IMG/VR virus record: IMGVR_UViG_3300037258_000560
Location: 1 to 43,617 of that record
Reading direction: 5' to 3' (one strand)
Length of the DNA: 43,617 nt
From: a virus
Part shown: piece by piece, positions 32,898 to 40,023 of the stretch
Layout of the letters: each line of letters begins with the position of its first letter
Numbering within the stretch: the stretch's first letter is position 1
Notes under the pieces: generated by a model
Seen by the model: only the letters and a program-made list of their open reading frames with translations
What the model was told of the DNA's origin: nothing
Database searches by the model: none
Program-made: the position numbers and the translations under genes

Positions 32898-33024
32898 TTT
32901 CTCTTTTCGGAGGCGGGGTTGGGCTTGGCGGCTTGCCGCGATTTTCGTCCCGCCTGATTGGAGGAGTCGGAGCAGGCGGCGGTGGCCCTTCCTTTGGCTG
33001 TTGCGGTTTCTGATCGTCGCTCAC
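32881..33024 (-). CDS. Small Pro-rich protein
   Basis: A 47-residue protein whose GTG start overlaps the stop of the upstream gene on this strand (GTGA). It is Pro- and Lys/Arg-rich (EGPPPPAPTPPIRRDENRG) and probably disordered. Its last codons overlap the end of the convergent SLATT-like gene by 17 bases. Confidence 0.5.
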   Translation of the reverse strand: MSDDQKPQQPKEGPPPPAPTPPIRRDENRGKPPSPTPPPKREITKSL

Positions 33025-33797
33025 AGTCTCGAGTCCTTCAGTCGCTCGGCGATTTTGTCGGCAAAGGGCTGAGCGAGCTGCCCAGCGCTCGGCGCGTAGG
33101 CGTTGTACCAAACGGCCTGCCGAATTGTGTCCGTATGCTCGAAGACTCGCTTGCCCGAGGAGTCGGTGAGCCAGTAGTGGATCTTCGCCGTCTCTCTGCC
33201 GGTTCCCATGCCGACGATCATTCGTTTCGCACGGTTGCCCGGGCGCCACTCGAGAATCTCGCCCGAGAGCGTATAAACCGGACCAACGGCCGAAGGCGCA
33301 GCGTTCTCTACGTCGAATTTCTTTCCATCTTTGATGCGCAGCTCGACGATGGTTTGGGCCTGCATCTGCCCCGCGTCGTAAGGCCACTGCGCGCCCTCAG
33401 CCACCGCGAAAGTTCCAACCACGATGGTCGGCCTGCCTTGAGCGAATGCGCCCGCAGAAACGCTCAGGAACGCGATCAACGCCATCACTAGAGCCGCGAT
33501 CGCCGCCCCGCAGCTCCCGCAGAACTTCACGCCGGCCGCCGAGTACTTTCCGCATTGGGAGCAAAGCGCCGGCGGCGCCATGGGCGCTTGGCGTTCGACG
33601 ATTATTTGACTCGCGGAATCCTGAGTGCAGGCCCACACGAACGCACCGATCCAGCCAAGGACCGTCCAGCCGGCCAGAAGGTTCAGTGCGAAAATTGCTC
33701 CGGAGCTCGTCTTCTTTCGGCTGAAGGCGACCGTCGCGGGCAAGAAATAGAGAATCAGCCCGACAATGACAAGAATGAGCACTTTGGCGATCGTCAT
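33021..33797 (-). CDS. Superinfection-immunity domain + zinc ribbon + DUF4410-like protein
   Basis: A 258-residue protein. Residues 1-62 match the phage superinfection immunity family (T4 Imm type): LILVIVGLILYFLPATVAFS, then GAIFALNLLAGWTVLGWIGA and FVWAC. Imm blocks DNA entry of related phages. A zinc ribbon follows (CSQCGKYSAAGVKFCGSCG), then a hydrophobic signal-like segment (MALIAFLSVSAGAFAQG, residues about 105-121), and a DUF4410-like domain (YTLSGEILEWRPGNRAKRMI, VGMGTGRETAKIHYWLTD). A strong GGGGAGGA site precedes ATG 33797. An internal in-frame ATG at 33485 could also start a separate exported protein. It faces away from the attP and is a likely lysogenic accessory gene. Confidence 0.7.
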   Translation of the reverse strand: MTIAKVLILVIVGLILYFLPATVAFSRKKTSSGAIFALNLLAGWTVLGWIGAFVWACTQDSASQIIVERQAPMAPPALCSQCGKYSAAGVKFCGSCGAAIAALVMALIAFLSVSAGAFAQGRPTIVVGTFAVAEGAQWPYDAGQMQAQTIVELRIKDGKKFDVENAAPSAVGPVYTLSGEILEWRPGNRAKRMIVGMGTGRETAKIHYWLTDSSGKRVFEHTDTIRQAVWYNAYAPSAGQLAQPFADKIAERLKDSRL

Positions 33798-33817: not shown

Positions 33818-33837
33818 GGTGTCAGTTCTGGTGCTAG
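33818..33837 (+). repeat. attP arm-type repeat, left copy
   Basis: GGTGTCAGTTCTGGTGCTAG, 18 of 20 positions identical to the copy at 34124-34143 and in the same orientation. The two copies bracket the tRNA-derived core, as integrase arm sites do. Confidence 0.65.
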
Positions 33838-33906
33838 TTCCTTTTGCGCTAAGGTGCTCTATCTTGCCTTAACCTGCATGCTTCGCCAGCCGGTAGCCCG
33901 TGGGGA

Positions 33907-33927
33907 TGCCTGTAAGTCTAACAGGCA
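33907..33927 (+). other. Short hairpin in the attP region
   Basis: TGCCTGT (33907-33913) pairs perfectly with ACAGGCA (33921-33927) around a 7-base loop. It lies between the left arm repeat and the core. It could be a protein binding dyad or mark the end of a leftward or rightward transcript. Confidence 0.35.
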
Positions 33928-33988
33928 CGTTAGAGCATAGTAAAGCAGGACCGCGCAGGATAGCGCAAAGCGTGACTTGGCTCTCGGA

Positions 33989-34038
33989 ACGGACTCATAA
34001 TCCGTTGGTCCAAGGTTCAAATCCTTGCGGGCCCACCA
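33989..34038 (+). other. attP core: 3' half of a tRNA with CAU anticodon
   Basis: The anticodon arm ACGGA-CTCATAA-TCCGT (33989-34005), variable loop, T arm CAAGG-TTCAAAT-CCTTG (34011-34027), acceptor 3' strand CGGGCCC (34028-34034), discriminator A and encoded CCA are all intact. The 5' half is missing: no GGGCCCG partner or D arm occurs upstream. Phages integrating into tRNA genes carry such a 3' part so that the host tRNA is restored. Anticodon CAU means either elongator Met or the Ile2 (AUA) tRNA; I cannot decide which. Confidence 0.85.
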
Positions 34039-34051
34039 ACGCTCATCGCTC

Positions 34052-34294
34052 TTACTTCTCATCGTTTTGCCCTGTGACTTTCTCTGTGGAAATGTTCCCG
34101 GGATCGCCCGCGTCTTTTCGCTCGGTGTCAGTTGTGGTGCCAGAGGGGCTCTCCTTCGGGTGGATCCAAATTTTCGTGCCGCAGCGGCAGGTGTGCTCGA
34201 CGACACCGTGGCTTGGCTCCCCTAGGAAATCCCTGAGGCAGTTCGGGCAGCGAAAGAACAAAGCAGTCTCGGACCAGCGACGGTTCCGGCTCAT
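34052..34294 (-). CDS. Small zinc-ribbon protein next to attP
   Basis: An 80-residue protein whose ATG overlaps the integrase stop by four bases (ATGA). CPNC (near residue 16) and CRCG (near residue 36) make a zinc ribbon; the remainder is polar. It is the last gene of the leftward operon, and its 3' half covers the right arm repeat of attP. It may be an accessory factor in recombination, but this is a guess from position. Confidence 0.6.
   Translation of the reverse strand: MSRNRRWSETALFFRCPNCLRDFLGEPSHGVVEHTCRCGTKIWIHPKESPSGTTTDTERKDAGDPGNISTEKVTGQNDEK
34124..34143 (+). repeat. attP arm-type repeat, right copy
   Basis: GGTGTCAGTTGTGGTGCCAG, differing from the left copy at two positions only. 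It lies inside the coding region of the small zinc-ribbon gene. Confidence 0.65.
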
Positions 34295-35343
34295 TCGGAT
34301 TTCTCCTCCAGCTCGACGGCCTCGGCCATGTGCGCCCCCGAGAGGTGAGCGTAGCGCTCAGTGGTCTTAACGTTCTTGTGGCCGAGCAGGACCTGGACCG
34401 TGCGGATCGGCCGGCCGGCCATGACCAGGCGCGACGCGAAGGTGTGGCGCAGGTCGTGGAAATGGAAATCTTCGATGCCGGCGCGCCTCACGGCTTGCTC
34501 GAACCAGTTCACGTGATCGCCTGCGCGGCGGCCCTGGCTGATCGCCAGCACTGGATCTATGGATCTCAGCGTGCGGCCGCGTTCGAGCTCGTCAATCGCC
34601 GCGAGGGCCGCTTTGTCGAGGGCGATGTGGCGCTTCCGTCCGCTCTTTGATTTCACCACGGTAAGAATTTTCCTCTCTCGATCGACGTCCCGCCACTTCA
34701 GATTGAACACTTCCCCTCTGCGCATCCCGGTGTGCATGGCGAGATCCACGATGGCCTGGTGCGTTGGCCGTCTGGCCAGCGCCTCGCGCAGCCGGAGCTC
34801 CTCGTCGGCTTCTAGGAAGCGCACCCGCTCGTTGTTTTCCTTGAGCTGTTTGACCTTGCGCGCGGGATTCACCGAAAGCTTGTCATTCTTGCCGGCCAGG
34901 TTGTAGACGCCCGAGAGCAGCGCGCGGTAGCGGTTGCGCGTTGCTGGCGAGCGATTGGGATCTGAGCCGAGGAAGCGGGTTACATCCTGCGGCGTGATGG
35001 CCTCGGCATCCTTCCCCCGGAAGGCCACGAGGAGCTGCTCCATACGCTGCAGGTTGGTCTGGTAGCTGCGCGGAGCGTGGCTGATCCGGCTCATCTCGAG
35101 GAAGTCCGCGGCGATCTCGGTGAAGGGCGTCGAGCGGCGCTTAAAGTCATCCGGGAACAGGCGCCGGCGCCGAACATCCGCGCGTCGAATCTCGACCAGG
35201 TCCTGGGCGTCCTTCAACCCTCCAACTTTTTCTCTGCGCATGCGACCCGTAGCGATGGCGTAACGTATCCAATAGATACCGCTCCCAGGCGGTCGCTCGA
35301 AGACGCCGCGCGGCAGGACGCGCTCATTTGTCCTACCGTGCAT
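34291..35343 (-). CDS. int: Tyrosine recombinase (phage integrase)
   Basis: A 350-residue site-specific recombinase. Residues 1-60 form an N-terminal arm-binding-like part, 70-160 the SAM-like core-binding domain, and 170-350 the catalytic domain. The catalytic set is complete: R208 (HTGMRRGEVFNLKW), a Lys in KSKSGRKRHI (233-239), H296 and R299 (FHDLRHTFASRL), H322 (LLGHKN) and nucleophile Y331 (TTERYAHL). It is followed by the attP region and preceded by a regulator gene that overlaps it by 11 bases. The last 37 bases also occur, inverted, at 43052-43088. Confidence 0.95.
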   Translation of the reverse strand: MHGRTNERVLPRGVFERPPGSGIYWIRYAIATGRMRREKVGGLKDAQDLVEIRRADVRRRRLFPDDFKRRSTPFTEIAADFLEMSRISHAPRSYQTNLQRMEQLLVAFRGKDAEAITPQDVTRFLGSDPNRSPATRNRYRALLSGVYNLAGKNDKLSVNPARKVKQLKENNERVRFLEADEELRLREALARRPTHQAIVDLAMHTGMRRGEVFNLKWRDVDRERKILTVVKSKSGRKRHIALDKAALAAIDELERGRTLRSIDPVLAISQGRRAGDHVNWFEQAVRRAGIEDFHFHDLRHTFASRLVMAGRPIRTVQVLLGHKNVKTTERYAHLSGAHMAEAVELEEKSE

Positions 35344-35722: not shown

Positions 35723-35837
35723 GACCGGGACTGTATTACGTGTTGCAGGTGAATTCAATTTGAATCTCTCTGTGTATTACGCGAGTAACACAAGGAGCTT
35801 GACATGGGCAATATCTCTGCACTACACTCCGCCACCG
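35723..35837. promoter_or_regulatory. Divergent control region between lysogenic and early operons
   Basis: TGTATTACG occurs twice (35732-35740 and 35773-35781), and between them lies the 13-base palindrome ATTCAATTTGAAT (35753-35765). Rightward, TTGACA (35799-35804) and TACACT (35823-35828) with an 18-base spacer form a good promoter. Leftward, the complement of 35734-35739 reads TAATAC, a good -10, close to ATG 35722. The repeats are candidates for operators. Confidence 0.6.
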
Positions 35838-35999
35838 ATGAGAAACAAAACGTTCAAATCCCAAATGTTCACGATTCGCCTTACTCCAGCAGAAATGCGT
35901 GCCCTGAAAGCTGCAGCGAAACGTCGGGGAGAAAAGCCGCGCCAAATGGTCTACGGGCTTTTGCTCCGGGAGATCGGCCGAATGCGAGTGGCCGCGTGA
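35838..35999 (+). CDS. Small ribbon-helix-helix-like protein (Cro position)
   Basis: A 53-residue protein: FKSQMFTIRLTPAEMRALKA, then EKPRQMVYGLLLREIGRMR, a strand-helix-helix pattern of CopG/Arc type. It is the first gene of the rightward early operon, ten bases beyond the -10, so it would be translated from an almost leaderless mRNA. The position is that of a Cro-like regulator. Confidence 0.6.
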   Translation: MRNKTFKSQMFTIRLTPAEMRALKAAAKRRGEKPRQMVYGLLLREIGRMRVAA

Positions 36000-36259
36000 G
36001 TGAGAAGCGGGAGAAGCGGGAGAAGCGCACCAACCCCGTTCCTGTAGGCGAGCGACTGATGCTCACGCCGCAGTTCGCAGCCGACCTGCTTTCGATTTCC
36101 AGGCGCAAGTTAGGGGAACTGCTGGCCGCGGGCATCTTGCACGGCCAGAAGGTCGGCGGCTCTAGGATGTTCTCGAGATCCGAACTTGAGAAGTTTGCCG
36201 CCGGAGAAGTGGCCGCAGCGGTGTCAGTCTCAAACGATCGTCGCAAGAAAAAGCAGTAA
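35996..36259 (+). CDS. Helix-turn-helix protein, excisionase-like
   Basis: An 87-residue protein from GTG 35996, overlapping the previous stop by four bases. After a basic leader come LTPQFAADLLSISRRKLGEL, then LAAGILHGQKVGGSRMFSRS and ELEKF, a MerR/excisionase-type winged helix. It may direct excision or regulate early genes. Confidence 0.65.
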   Translation: MSEKREKREKRTNPVPVGERLMLTPQFAADLLSISRRKLGELLAAGILHGQKVGGSRMFSRSELEKFAAGEVAAAVSVSNDRRKKKQ

Positions 36260-37488: not shown

Positions 37489-38790
37489 ATGGCCGAGATC
37501 TGCACACAAGCGCTCGAAATCATCGAGCGCCTCAAAAAACGCCCTGAGCGCCTCGATAAGGCCAAGGCCGAGCGAGCGCTCCGCGAGCATTTCGAAGCGC
37601 TCGGGTTAAAACCCCTCCGCGTCCGCTGGGTTGCGGACGCGGAGCAAGGCTACGCCGTGGCGAGGAGCGCGGCGAGGAGCGCGGCGTGGAGCGCGGCGGA
37701 GAGCGCGGCGGAGAGCGCGGCGTGGAGCGCGGCGGAGAGCTCGGCGGAGAGCTCGGCGTGGAGCGTGGCGAGGAGCGCGGCGAGGAGCGCGGCGTGGAGC
37801 GCGGCGGAGAGCGCGGCGTGGAGCGCGGCGGAGAGCGCGGCGTGGAGCGCGGCGGAGAGCGCGGCGGAGAGCTCGGCGTGGAGCGCGGCGAGGAGCGCGG
37901 CGTGGAGCGTGGCGTGGAGCGTGGCGAGGAGCGCGGCGAGGAGCGTGGCGGAGGGCGCGGCGGAGAGAGCGGCGGAGAGAGCGGCGTGGAGCGCGGCGGA
38001 GGGCGCGGCGAGGAGCGCGGCGAGGAGCGCGGCGGAGGGCGCGGCGAGGAGAGCGGCGAGGAGCGCGGCGGAGAGCGCGGCGGAGAGCTCGGCGAGGAGA
38101 GCGGCGAGGAGCGCGGCGGAGAGAGCGGCGTTGAGCGTGGCGAGCGTGGCGAGCGTGGCGTGGAGCGTGGCGGAGAACGCGGCGGAGAGCGTGGCGGAGA
38201 ACGCGGCGGAGAGCGTGGCGTGGATCGTGGCGAGGAGCGCGGCGATTGATAAGTACATTGGAATTTGGCTGCCGTTTGTAGACGCCCACGAGGCAGGGCT
38301 CTGGGCGTTCTGGGTTCTCAGGGATGAAGTGATTGCCGTCGCGCGGCCGGTTATACGCATCGAGAACGATCGGCTGCACTGCGACTATGCCCCGGCCGTC
38401 TCCTGGCCTGACGGGGCTCGCTATTGGTTCTGGAAGGGCGTTCAGGTGCCCCGGGAAGTGATCGAGCAGCCCGAGCTGATCACCGCCGAACGCGCACTCA
38501 CCGAGCGGAACGCGGAAATCAGGCGGGTGATGATCGAGCGCATGGGCGTGGAGCGCTTCATCGTCGAGGGCCATGCCAGGCTCGTCCACGCCCATGAAAT
38601 GGGGGAGTTGTTCTCGATCGGCGTGTTCGGCGATCCCGACGGCTGCGTGAACGCGGTCCGGGTTACCTGCTCCTCCACAGGCCGAAAGTATTTCCTGCGT
38701 GTTCCGCCTTCGATTAAACGAGCCGATGACGCCGTAGCGTGGACCTTCGGATTCGAGACGGCCAATTACCGGCCGGTGGTGGAGAGCTGA
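37489..38790 (+). CDS. DUF6745-like protein with A-x-S-A repeat tract, copy 1
   Basis: A 433-residue protein in three parts. Residues 1-58 are helical (CTQALEIIERLKKRPERLDK). Residues 59-252 hold about 49 tetrapeptides of the form A-[R/W/E]-S-A. The C-terminal 180 residues match DUF6745: AGLWAFWVLRDEVIAVARPV, NDRLHCDYAPAVSWPDGARY, WFWKGVQVP, NAEIRRVMIERMG and YFLRVPPSIKRADDAVAWTF. The tract should be a long Ala-rich helix. The function is unknown. Outside the tract it differs from copy 2 by only three bases. Confidence 0.75.
   Translation: MAEICTQALEIIERLKKRPERLDKAKAERALREHFEALGLKPLRVRWVADAEQGYAVARSAARSAAWSAAESAAESAAWSAAESSAESSAWSVARSAARSAAWSAAESAAWSAAESAAWSAAESAAESSAWSAARSAAWSVAWSVARSAARSVAEGAAERAAERAAWSAAEGAARSAARSAAEGAARRAARSAAESAAESSARRAARSAAERAALSVASVASVAWSVAENAAESVAENAAESVAWIVARSAAIDKYIGIWLPFVDAHEAGLWAFWVLRDEVIAVARPVIRIENDRLHCDYAPAVSWPDGARYWFWKGVQVPREVIEQPELITAERALTERNAEIRRVMIERMGVERFIVEGHARLVHAHEMGELFSIGVFGDPDGCVNAVRVTCSSTGRKYFLRVPPSIKRADDAVAWTFGFETANYRPVVES
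37663..38247 (+). repeat. 12-bp minisatellite, copy 1 (about 49 units)
   Basis: Units such as GCGAGGAGCGCG, GCGTGGAGCGCG and GCGGAGAGCGCG, all in frame except for two 9-base units (ASV ASV). The second codon switches between AGG, TGG and GAG. All six frames stay open across the tract, producing large false reading frames on both strands. Confidence 0.9.
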
Positions 38791-38810
38791 TGAGCGCGGC
38801 GGTCGACTGA
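38790..38810 (+). pseudogene. Duplication scar: stub of the downstream gene
   Basis: A six-codon frame (MSAAVD, stop) whose first four codons and the first base of the fifth are identical to the start of the gene at 40023. It is what remains of that gene's 5' end at the inner junction of the tandem duplication. Confidence 0.8.
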
Positions 38811-38811
38811 C

Positions 38812-40023
38812 ATGGCCGAGATCTGCACACAAGCGCTCGAAATCATCGAGCGCCTCAAAAAACGCCCTGAGCACCTCGATAAGGCCAAGGCCGAGCGAGC
38901 GCTCCGCGAGCATTTCGAAGCGCTCGGGTTAAAACCCCTCCGCGTCCGCTGGGTTGCGGACGCGGAGCAAGGCTACGCCGTGGCGAGGAGCGCGGCGGAG
39001 AGAGCGGCGAGGAGCGCGGCGGAGAGCGCGGCGTGGAGAGCGGCGTTGATCGTGGCGAGGAGCGCGGCGTTCAGCGCGGCGAGGAGCGCGGCGTGGAGCG
39101 TGGCGTGGAACCTGGCGAGGAGCGCGGCGAGGAGCGCGGCGTGGAGCGTGGCGGAGATAGCGGCGGAGAGAGCGGCGAGGAGCGCGGCGTGGAGCGCGGC
39201 GGAGAGAGCGGCGGAGAGAGCGGCGTGGAACGTGGCGACGGGCGCGGCGTGGAACGTGGCGTGGAGCGCGGCGGAGAGAGCGGCGAGGAGCGCGGTGTGG
39301 AGCGCGGCGTGGAACGTGGCGTGGAGCGCGGCGGGGAGCGCGGCGGAGAGCGCGGCGGAGAGCGCGGCGTGGATCGTGGCGAGGAGCGTGGCGTGGAACG
39401 TGGCGTGGAGCGCTGCGAGGAGCGCGGCGGAGAGCGCGGCGAGGAGCGCGGCGAGGAGCGTGGCGGAGAGCGCGGCGATTGATATATACATTGGAATTTG
39501 GCTGCCGTTTGTAGACGCCCACGAGGCAGGGCTCTGGGCGTTCTGGGTTCTCAGGGATGAAGTGATTGCCGTCGCGCGGCCGGTTATACGCATCGAGAAC
39601 GATCGGCTGCACTGCGACTATGCCCCGGCCGTCTCCTGGCCTGACGGGGCTCGCTATTGGTTCTGGAAGGGCGTTCAGGTGCCCCGGGAAGTGATCGAGC
39701 AGCCCGAGCTGATCACCGCCGAACGCGCACTCACCGAGCGGAACGCGGAAATCAGGCGGGTGATGATCGAGCGCATGGGCGTGGAGCGCTTCATCGTCGA
39801 GGGCCATGCCAGGCTCGTCCACGCCCATGAAATGGGGGAGTTGTTCTCGATCGGCGTGTTCGGCGATCCCGACGGCTGCGTGAACGCGGTCCGGGTTACC
39901 TGCTCCTCCACAGGCCGAAAGTATTTCCTGCGTGTTCCGCCTTCGATTAAACGAGCCGATGACGCCGTAGCGTGGACCTTCGGATTCGAGACGGCCAATT
40001 ACCGGCCGGTGGTGGAGAGCTGA
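38812..40023 (+). CDS. DUF6745-like protein with A-x-S-A repeat tract, copy 2
   Basis: A 403-residue paralogue of the preceding gene. The N-terminal part differs from copy 1 at one base (CGC to CAC, R to H, at 38873), and the DUF6745 part only by AAG to ATA (K to I) at 39484-39486, directly after the tract. The tract has about 41 units in a different order, with rarer residues (L, F, T, G, N, I) at the variable positions. The stop overlaps the next ATG by one base. Confidence 0.75.
   Translation: MAEICTQALEIIERLKKRPEHLDKAKAERALREHFEALGLKPLRVRWVADAEQGYAVARSAAERAARSAAESAAWRAALIVARSAAFSAARSAAWSVAWNLARSAARSAAWSVAEIAAERAARSAAWSAAERAAERAAWNVATGAAWNVAWSAAERAARSAVWSAAWNVAWSAAGSAAESAAESAAWIVARSVAWNVAWSAARSAAESAARSAARSVAESAAIDIYIGIWLPFVDAHEAGLWAFWVLRDEVIAVARPVIRIENDRLHCDYAPAVSWPDGARYWFWKGVQVPREVIEQPELITAERALTERNAEIRRVMIERMGVERFIVEGHARLVHAHEMGELFSIGVFGDPDGCVNAVRVTCSSTGRKYFLRVPPSIKRADDAVAWTFGFETANYRPVVES
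38986..39477 (+). repeat. 12-bp minisatellite, copy 2 (about 41 units)
   Basis: The same A-x-S-A coding units as copy 1, but with a different order and more variants such as AWNV, ALIV, AFSA and ATGA. The order of units cannot be aligned simply to copy 1 at either end. Confidence 0.9.

Follow-up and report, generated by a model that had tools for sequence, protein, structure and literature searches.

A candidate tRNA-Ile2 attachment site in a phage assigned to Acidobacteriota, and tRNA orientation within its integrase subfamily

Half of a tRNA gene lying between two repeats and beside an integrase gene raises the question of whether a virus carries a complete phage attachment site (attP), which host gene such a site would use and where strands would be exchanged. 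We addressed this question in a 43,617-base IMG/VR virus record that is classed as linear and is without end overlap; the whole of it was analyzed and is called the window here. The left part of the record holds genes for terminase, portal, HK97-type capsid and tape-measure proteins, and the right part those for a tyrosine integrase (Int), excisionase-like HTH families and replication-initiation/helicase-loader-like proteins. The attachment site sits between the structural genes on the left and int with the early genes on the right.

Anatomy of the site and its neighboring genes

The core of the site (33990-34044, plus strand) corresponds to positions 28-76 of a tRNA-Ile2(CAU) with its CCA and 6 bp beyond, a stretch of 55 bp identical to a gene in L019, a MAG titled Candidatus Acidiferrales. 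As first proposed from the sequence, a tRNA 3' half running from a CAU anticodon arm to CCA is present at 33990-34038, consisting of the anticodon stem strand CGGA, the loop CTCATAA, TCCG, the T arm, the acceptor strand and CCA, and ARAGORN detected no whole tRNA gene in the full record. The Rfam tRNA model, whose cut-off is 29 bits, scored 27.5 bits on the core and fitted poorly in the 5' half. The anticodon loop itself (33994-34000, plus strand) is the predicted crossover, or overlap, region, a placement based on where the tRNA fragments end in related elements and on where the 3' fragments of L215-L217 start. None of the other viral contigs searched contains the 49-bp core.

The two 20-bp direct repeats of the original prediction were confirmed at their positions and are 90% identical. 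Each splits into the units GGTGTCAGT and GGTGCyAG, 12 bp apart, so that the arm-site candidates stand but are better described as tandem pairs of 9-bp sites. The P-side pair, GGTGTCAGT-TCT-GGTGCTAG, lies at 33818-33837 (plus strand) with a 12-bp period, and the P'-side pair, GGTGTCAGT-TGT-GGTGCCAG, at 34124-34143 in the same orientation, inside the end of a small open reading frame. When the 20-bp pattern was searched with at most three mismatches, exactly two matches were obtained in the window, against a chance expectation of 0.01, and none of 100 shuffled sequences gave two. The anticodon loop is separated from the P arm by 156 bp and from the P' arm by 123 bp. The right-hand distance from repeat to core agrees with the predicted 86 bases (34038 to 34124), whereas the left-hand distance had been given as 171 bases and is 152 bp (33837 to 33990). 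No IHF or Xis sites were identified at the window's attP. Between the P arm and the core, an imperfect 29-nt inverted repeat occupies positions 33843-33969, and its fold is not significant. A structured RNA between arm and core was considered and rejected, as no Rfam family reached its gathering score and the z-score of the fold was about -1.5 on either strand.

The prediction of an integrase gene beside the repeats also held: a tyrosine integrase of 350 aa is encoded at 34291-35343 on the minus strand (PF00589, E 6.7e-34; PF22022; phrog_1). Its frame is open and its catalytic residues R-K-H-R-H-Y (R208, K233, H296, R299, H322 and Y331) are conserved in the alignment. The protein has no C-terminal tail of the kind found in most relatives. 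Residues 1-73 gave no Pfam match even at E 10; an N-terminal motif is conserved in 20 aligned Ints. An 80-aa open reading frame with a CxxC...CxC pattern (34052-34294, minus strand) starts in overlap with the int stop (ATGA) and contains the P' arm pair at its 3' end; family searches with it gave no match. Further to the right, an HTH_17 protein (35804-36259, plus strand; PF12728, E 5.8e-9; phrog_66, E 2.8e-5) is a candidate excisionase or regulator and might take part in excision. On the other side, the start of a gene with Imm_superinfect and DUF4410 domains (33021-33797, minus strand) adjoins the P arm, and this gene would come to lie at one end of the prophage. Elsewhere in the window (37489-40023), two adjacent DUF6745 genes are about 91% identical over 1 kb, with internal repeats in each.

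Probable host gene and host group

Of 84,980 species genomes searched for an exact match to the 49-bp half, four contain it, all with titles naming Acidobacteriota, Acidobacteria or Acidiferrales, and all four matches lie inside a complete CAU tRNA gene. The expectation that host tRNA genes would share the half was thus borne out, with 49/49 bp in four genomes and, in L019, identity that continues 6 bp past the CCA (55/55 bp). Within the order of L019, 51 of 95 genomes match the core at E<=1e-12, the best over 55/55 bp. Relatives of the Int (E<=1e-60) were found in 15 of these 95 genomes, in 47 of 399 genomes of the class and in 8 of 396 genomes of the phylum sample; the three samples overlap, and up to five candidates per genome were scored in the class and phylum samples. 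The class search listed 57 Int matches, 17 of them outside the examined set. Int relatives were sampled in Acidobacteriota, and other phyla were covered solely by the collection-wide scan for the 49 bp. The window's portal protein gave no match in the 95 genomes of the presumed host order at E<=1e-40, a result that counts against the assignment of this phage to an Acidobacteriota host.

The original prediction left the target as a Met or an Ile2 tRNA. The choice can be narrowed: tRNA-Ile2 is most likely the target, and we have good confidence in this. An elongator tRNA-Met is the strongest of the alternative readings and still an unlikely one. ARAGORN labels every CAU tRNA 'Met' and the anticodon alone is indecisive; however, all eight tested genomes of the order match a second, different CAU tRNA, that of L192, with acceptor stem GCCGGCG (full length at 89-100% in five, partial in three), which is the better Met candidate. 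Moreover, the acceptor stem of the window's class, GGGCCCG/CGGGCCC, contains C4-G69 and C5-G68, which we take to be the identity pairs of TilS (lysidine synthetase). Ile2 is the better reading because of this separate L192-type tRNA in the tested genomes together with the two acceptor pairs.

Extra tRNA-Ile2 3' fragments occur in L215, L216 and L217, starting at the anticodon loop or at most 1 nt from it; in L215 and L216, 4 and 8 kb separate the fragment from the whole gene, without a recognisable Int of this family in the interval. These fragments appear to come from other or decayed elements sharing the tRNA-Ile2 target. In L016 and L018, the 3' side of tRNA-Ile2 holds different, distant integrases, convergent with the tRNA, and in L018 the integrase reading frame overlaps the end of the tRNA. 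In L017, an arm-like pair, GGTGCTAGTTTTGGTGTCAG (2887-2907), lies in the end of an apparent decayed integrase, and an identical tRNA-Ile2 gene follows downstream.

Relatives, attachment geometry and tRNA orientation

A first viral scan with the Int sequence gave only relatives of 24-35% identity, and closer ones came from the arm motif and from an alignment of Ints made later. A search of viral contigs with nothing but the arm motif returned 116 stretches, only three or four of which carry a recognisable Int relative, that of L107 being weak. L028, L060 and L130, with Int relatives of 258, 218 and 218 bits, outscored all viral relatives found by Int sequence until then, and in all three the arm motif is at the end of the integrase gene. 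In the relatives the motif falls within the last ~20 codons of int, whereas in the window it is in the coupled 80-aa reading frame after a shorter integrase. Two further viral contigs, L041 (4060-4259) and L073 (1886-2085), contain an arm-like 20-mer in five copies, some of them spaced 24 bp apart.

The closest viral relative, L257, is a sister phage whose Int is 53% identical. Its int is followed by small open reading frames, the P' arm, a tRNA-Leu(UAA) 3' half on the opposite strand (the tRNA identified by reading the sequence) and the P arm. As in the window, an arm pair falls within a small reading frame of its own after int, and the gap from loop to P arm is the same 156 bp; the P' gap is 138 bp against 123 bp, and the first half-site of the P arm is degenerate. 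The automated viral survey had scored L257 as lacking a tRNA fragment because the site is ~900 bp beyond int and 700 bp were covered, and its other rows without a fragment may hide further phages like this one.

Integrated relatives revealed both ends of the element. A tRNA adjoins the Int relative at 23 loci. In six of these, the fetched stretch includes a repeat of half the tRNA at the far end, and many of the others stop at contig ends. In L198, L203, L204, L211 and L250 the repeat comprises tRNA positions 1-40/41 at 100% identity, while in L246 it comprises positions 29-87 of a tRNA-Leu at 95%, with the tRNA oriented as in the window. In G484, a 5'-half copy (positions 1-46, 98%) lies 37 kb from the intact CAU tRNA, which is beside an Int. 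The 5'- and 3'-half repeats overlap only in the anticodon stem-loop, and the crossover therefore falls there. Searching the sequence left of int in L146 did not reveal a far end; a 20-bp match of the L247 tRNA was on the wrong strand and was left out of the count.

All six mapped relatives have a second arm pair inside the far end, in the same orientation. The gaps from loop to P arm are 130 bp in L198 and L211, 132 in L250, 131 in L246, 117 in L203 and 108 in L204, and the gaps to P', measured in four, are 108 (L198), 109 (L211), 108 (L250) and 110 bp (L246). Arm spacing is thus not strictly conserved, given the P-side values of 117 and 108 bp in L203 and L204. Nevertheless, L246 has the same arm gaps as L198, L211 and L250 with the tRNA in the opposite orientation. 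On the P side of these four, ~15-45 bp from the tRNA fragment, there is a further similar stretch around AACGCAGCACA, perhaps another protein site.

The window has the classical 3'-half orientation. Most of its close Int relatives in Acidobacteriota have the opposite one, with the tRNA 5' half (positions 1-40/41) and the same arm spacing. Where the Int scored 200 bits or more (38 genomic loci), a whole tRNA directly follows int on the same strand (5' side) in 20 cases, lies on the other strand (3' side, the window's arrangement) in five, and was not found in 13. These counts leave out the duplicates L140, L155, L156 and L198-L229 and, below 200 bits, L194 and L197 (interrupted frames) and L158 (a partial Int, 5' side); L231 was counted as 3' side from its mapped repeat (L246), its script label '5side' being due to another tRNA nearby. 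The 5'-half carriers in Acidobacteriota include L183, L184, L185 and L137, with int just upstream of the rebuilt tRNA. In viral records, 5' halves follow int in L268, L275, L283 and L291, and by reading in L060. A tree of 47 Ints, built without L257 and unsure in its long outgroup branches, placed the window Int outside the 40 other members of the subfamily (support 98/92) and required four changes of the polarity label, at least three of them forced by well-supported branches.

Since the arm gaps are the same in both tRNA orientations, the frame of the attP appears to be fixed, with a quasi-palindromic tRNA core that can be set either way. We consider it probable that an Int subfamily common in Acidobacteriota uses such a fixed frame, with arms at ~109 and ~131 bp, accepts the stem-loop in either orientation and has switched polarity several times with little change of geometry. 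Most members of the subfamily carry the 5' half and would then have to supply the tRNA promoter or read through into it. Among 21 5'-side relatives, 12 have a -10-like TAnnnT (at least four of six positions) within 30 bp ahead of the rebuilt tRNA, compared with 35% in shuffled sequences, a weak hint that the element may supply the promoter.

Proposed mechanism, alternatives and relation to known systems

Taken together, we read the locus as a complete attP, carried by a temperate, siphovirus-like phage whose hosts are Acidobacteriota, with an arm-pair-binding Int and strand exchange in the anticodon loop of tRNA-Ile2(CAU) in the host (probability about 0.93). The observed basis is the anatomy of the site, its identity to a host gene, the arm pairs that integrated relatives have at either end and the tRNA fragments ending on either side of the loop. 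The original reading of a complete attP is accordingly supported on three counts: host tRNA genes with the identical 49-55 bp, relatives in which both ends carry the same arm pairs with a matching tRNA fragment, and a sister phage of the same layout. In the proposed mechanism, the integrase, predicted to be active, would bind the 9-bp arm sites, arranged as a tandem pair on each side, and bridge them to the core formed by the anticodon stem-loop. Strand exchange would then take place within the loop, where the exact cuts are predicted to fall. With an identical 3' half coming from the phage, the host tRNA would be rebuilt whole at the int end and would still work; the 3' half that it displaces would mark the other end of the prophage.

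The same locus could be a relic, a former attP kept as passive sequence by a phage that has lost integration. An integrated copy of this phage was not found, the portal search of the host order included, and the Int is without the tail of most relatives; nevertheless, an open frame with all six catalytic residues, 49-55 bp of identity to living tRNA genes and both arm pairs intact make this very unlikely, and the arm pair of L257 is likewise in a separate small reading frame after int. We give equally little credence to the record being a tandem-prophage junction or an assembly join of prophage ends, with a recombined att site in place of attP. The claim that the molecule is not integrated here holds in so far as phage genes flank the site on both sides, but a tandem junction would look alike in a linear record without end overlap. 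The gene order, however, is that of a free phage, and the same core and arms would still be present at a junction. A tRNA-derived regulatory RNA, or a chance similarity with no link to integration, is scarcely credible: region 33838-33975 does fold with a long imperfect hairpin, but neither its z-score nor Rfam backs a functional RNA, the arms, int and relatives all indicate attachment, and an exact 49-bp tRNA half is not chance.

The attP of this phage is read as genuine and complete, and its parts resemble known sites. In the attP of phage lambda, arm sites flank a core that has a short overlap, and int is adjacent (PMC8371274). The window's site shares this plan, and differs in having its core in a tRNA gene and arm pairs that are direct with a 12-bp period. 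Pseudomonas phage phi3 (KT887559), a different phage with a different host, contains a 48-bp stretch 87.5% identical to the core under a feature annotated as site-specific recombinase. Lysogeny dependent on a tRNA, in which a phage with a short core that leaves the host tRNA broken brings a whole tRNA gene of its own, was considered and rejected: here the core rebuilds a host tRNA, and the record is without a phage tRNA gene. The closest documented parallels are actinobacteriophages such as Boilgate and Omega, which are described as having a tyrosine integrase, a common core of 30-45 bp that includes a tRNA 3' half, putative arm-site pairs flanking the core and a tRNA rebuilt at one junction (PMC10865867). 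The likeness in Int type, core and flanking arm pairs is one of description, and the presumed host phylum differs; in the window's subfamily, unlike the account given for those phages, integrated relatives with either tRNA orientation conserve the geometry of the arm pairs and thereby support them. In the published account of Islander, class A islands have their crossover in the anticodon loop and a 3' tRNA fragment displaced to the far end (PMC4383910), which corresponds to the exchange that we infer here. The 3' fragment is reported there for 3760 of 3919 islands and the 5' fragment for 159 of 3919, so the 5' habit is known but generally rare (PMC4383910), in contrast to the window Int's relatives, which mostly leave the 5' fragment. 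The anticodon loop and stem are further described as matching the overlap and core organisation of such att sites (PMC8371274).

The attP itself is ordinary and of a known kind, and what is unusual is the freedom of tRNA orientation within the integrase subfamily. Our literature search returned no paper on both polarities within one integrase subfamily, a weak result, as the search wording was limited. New for this attP is that a host group, a target gene and an arm structure are now assigned to it. The assignment links a soil-type virus with Acidobacteriota and with one defined site in the chromosome, and offers a phylum poor in genetic tools a predicted integration system. With both tRNA orientations and the same arm geometry in one Int subfamily, the symmetry argument for tRNA targeting becomes directly testable.
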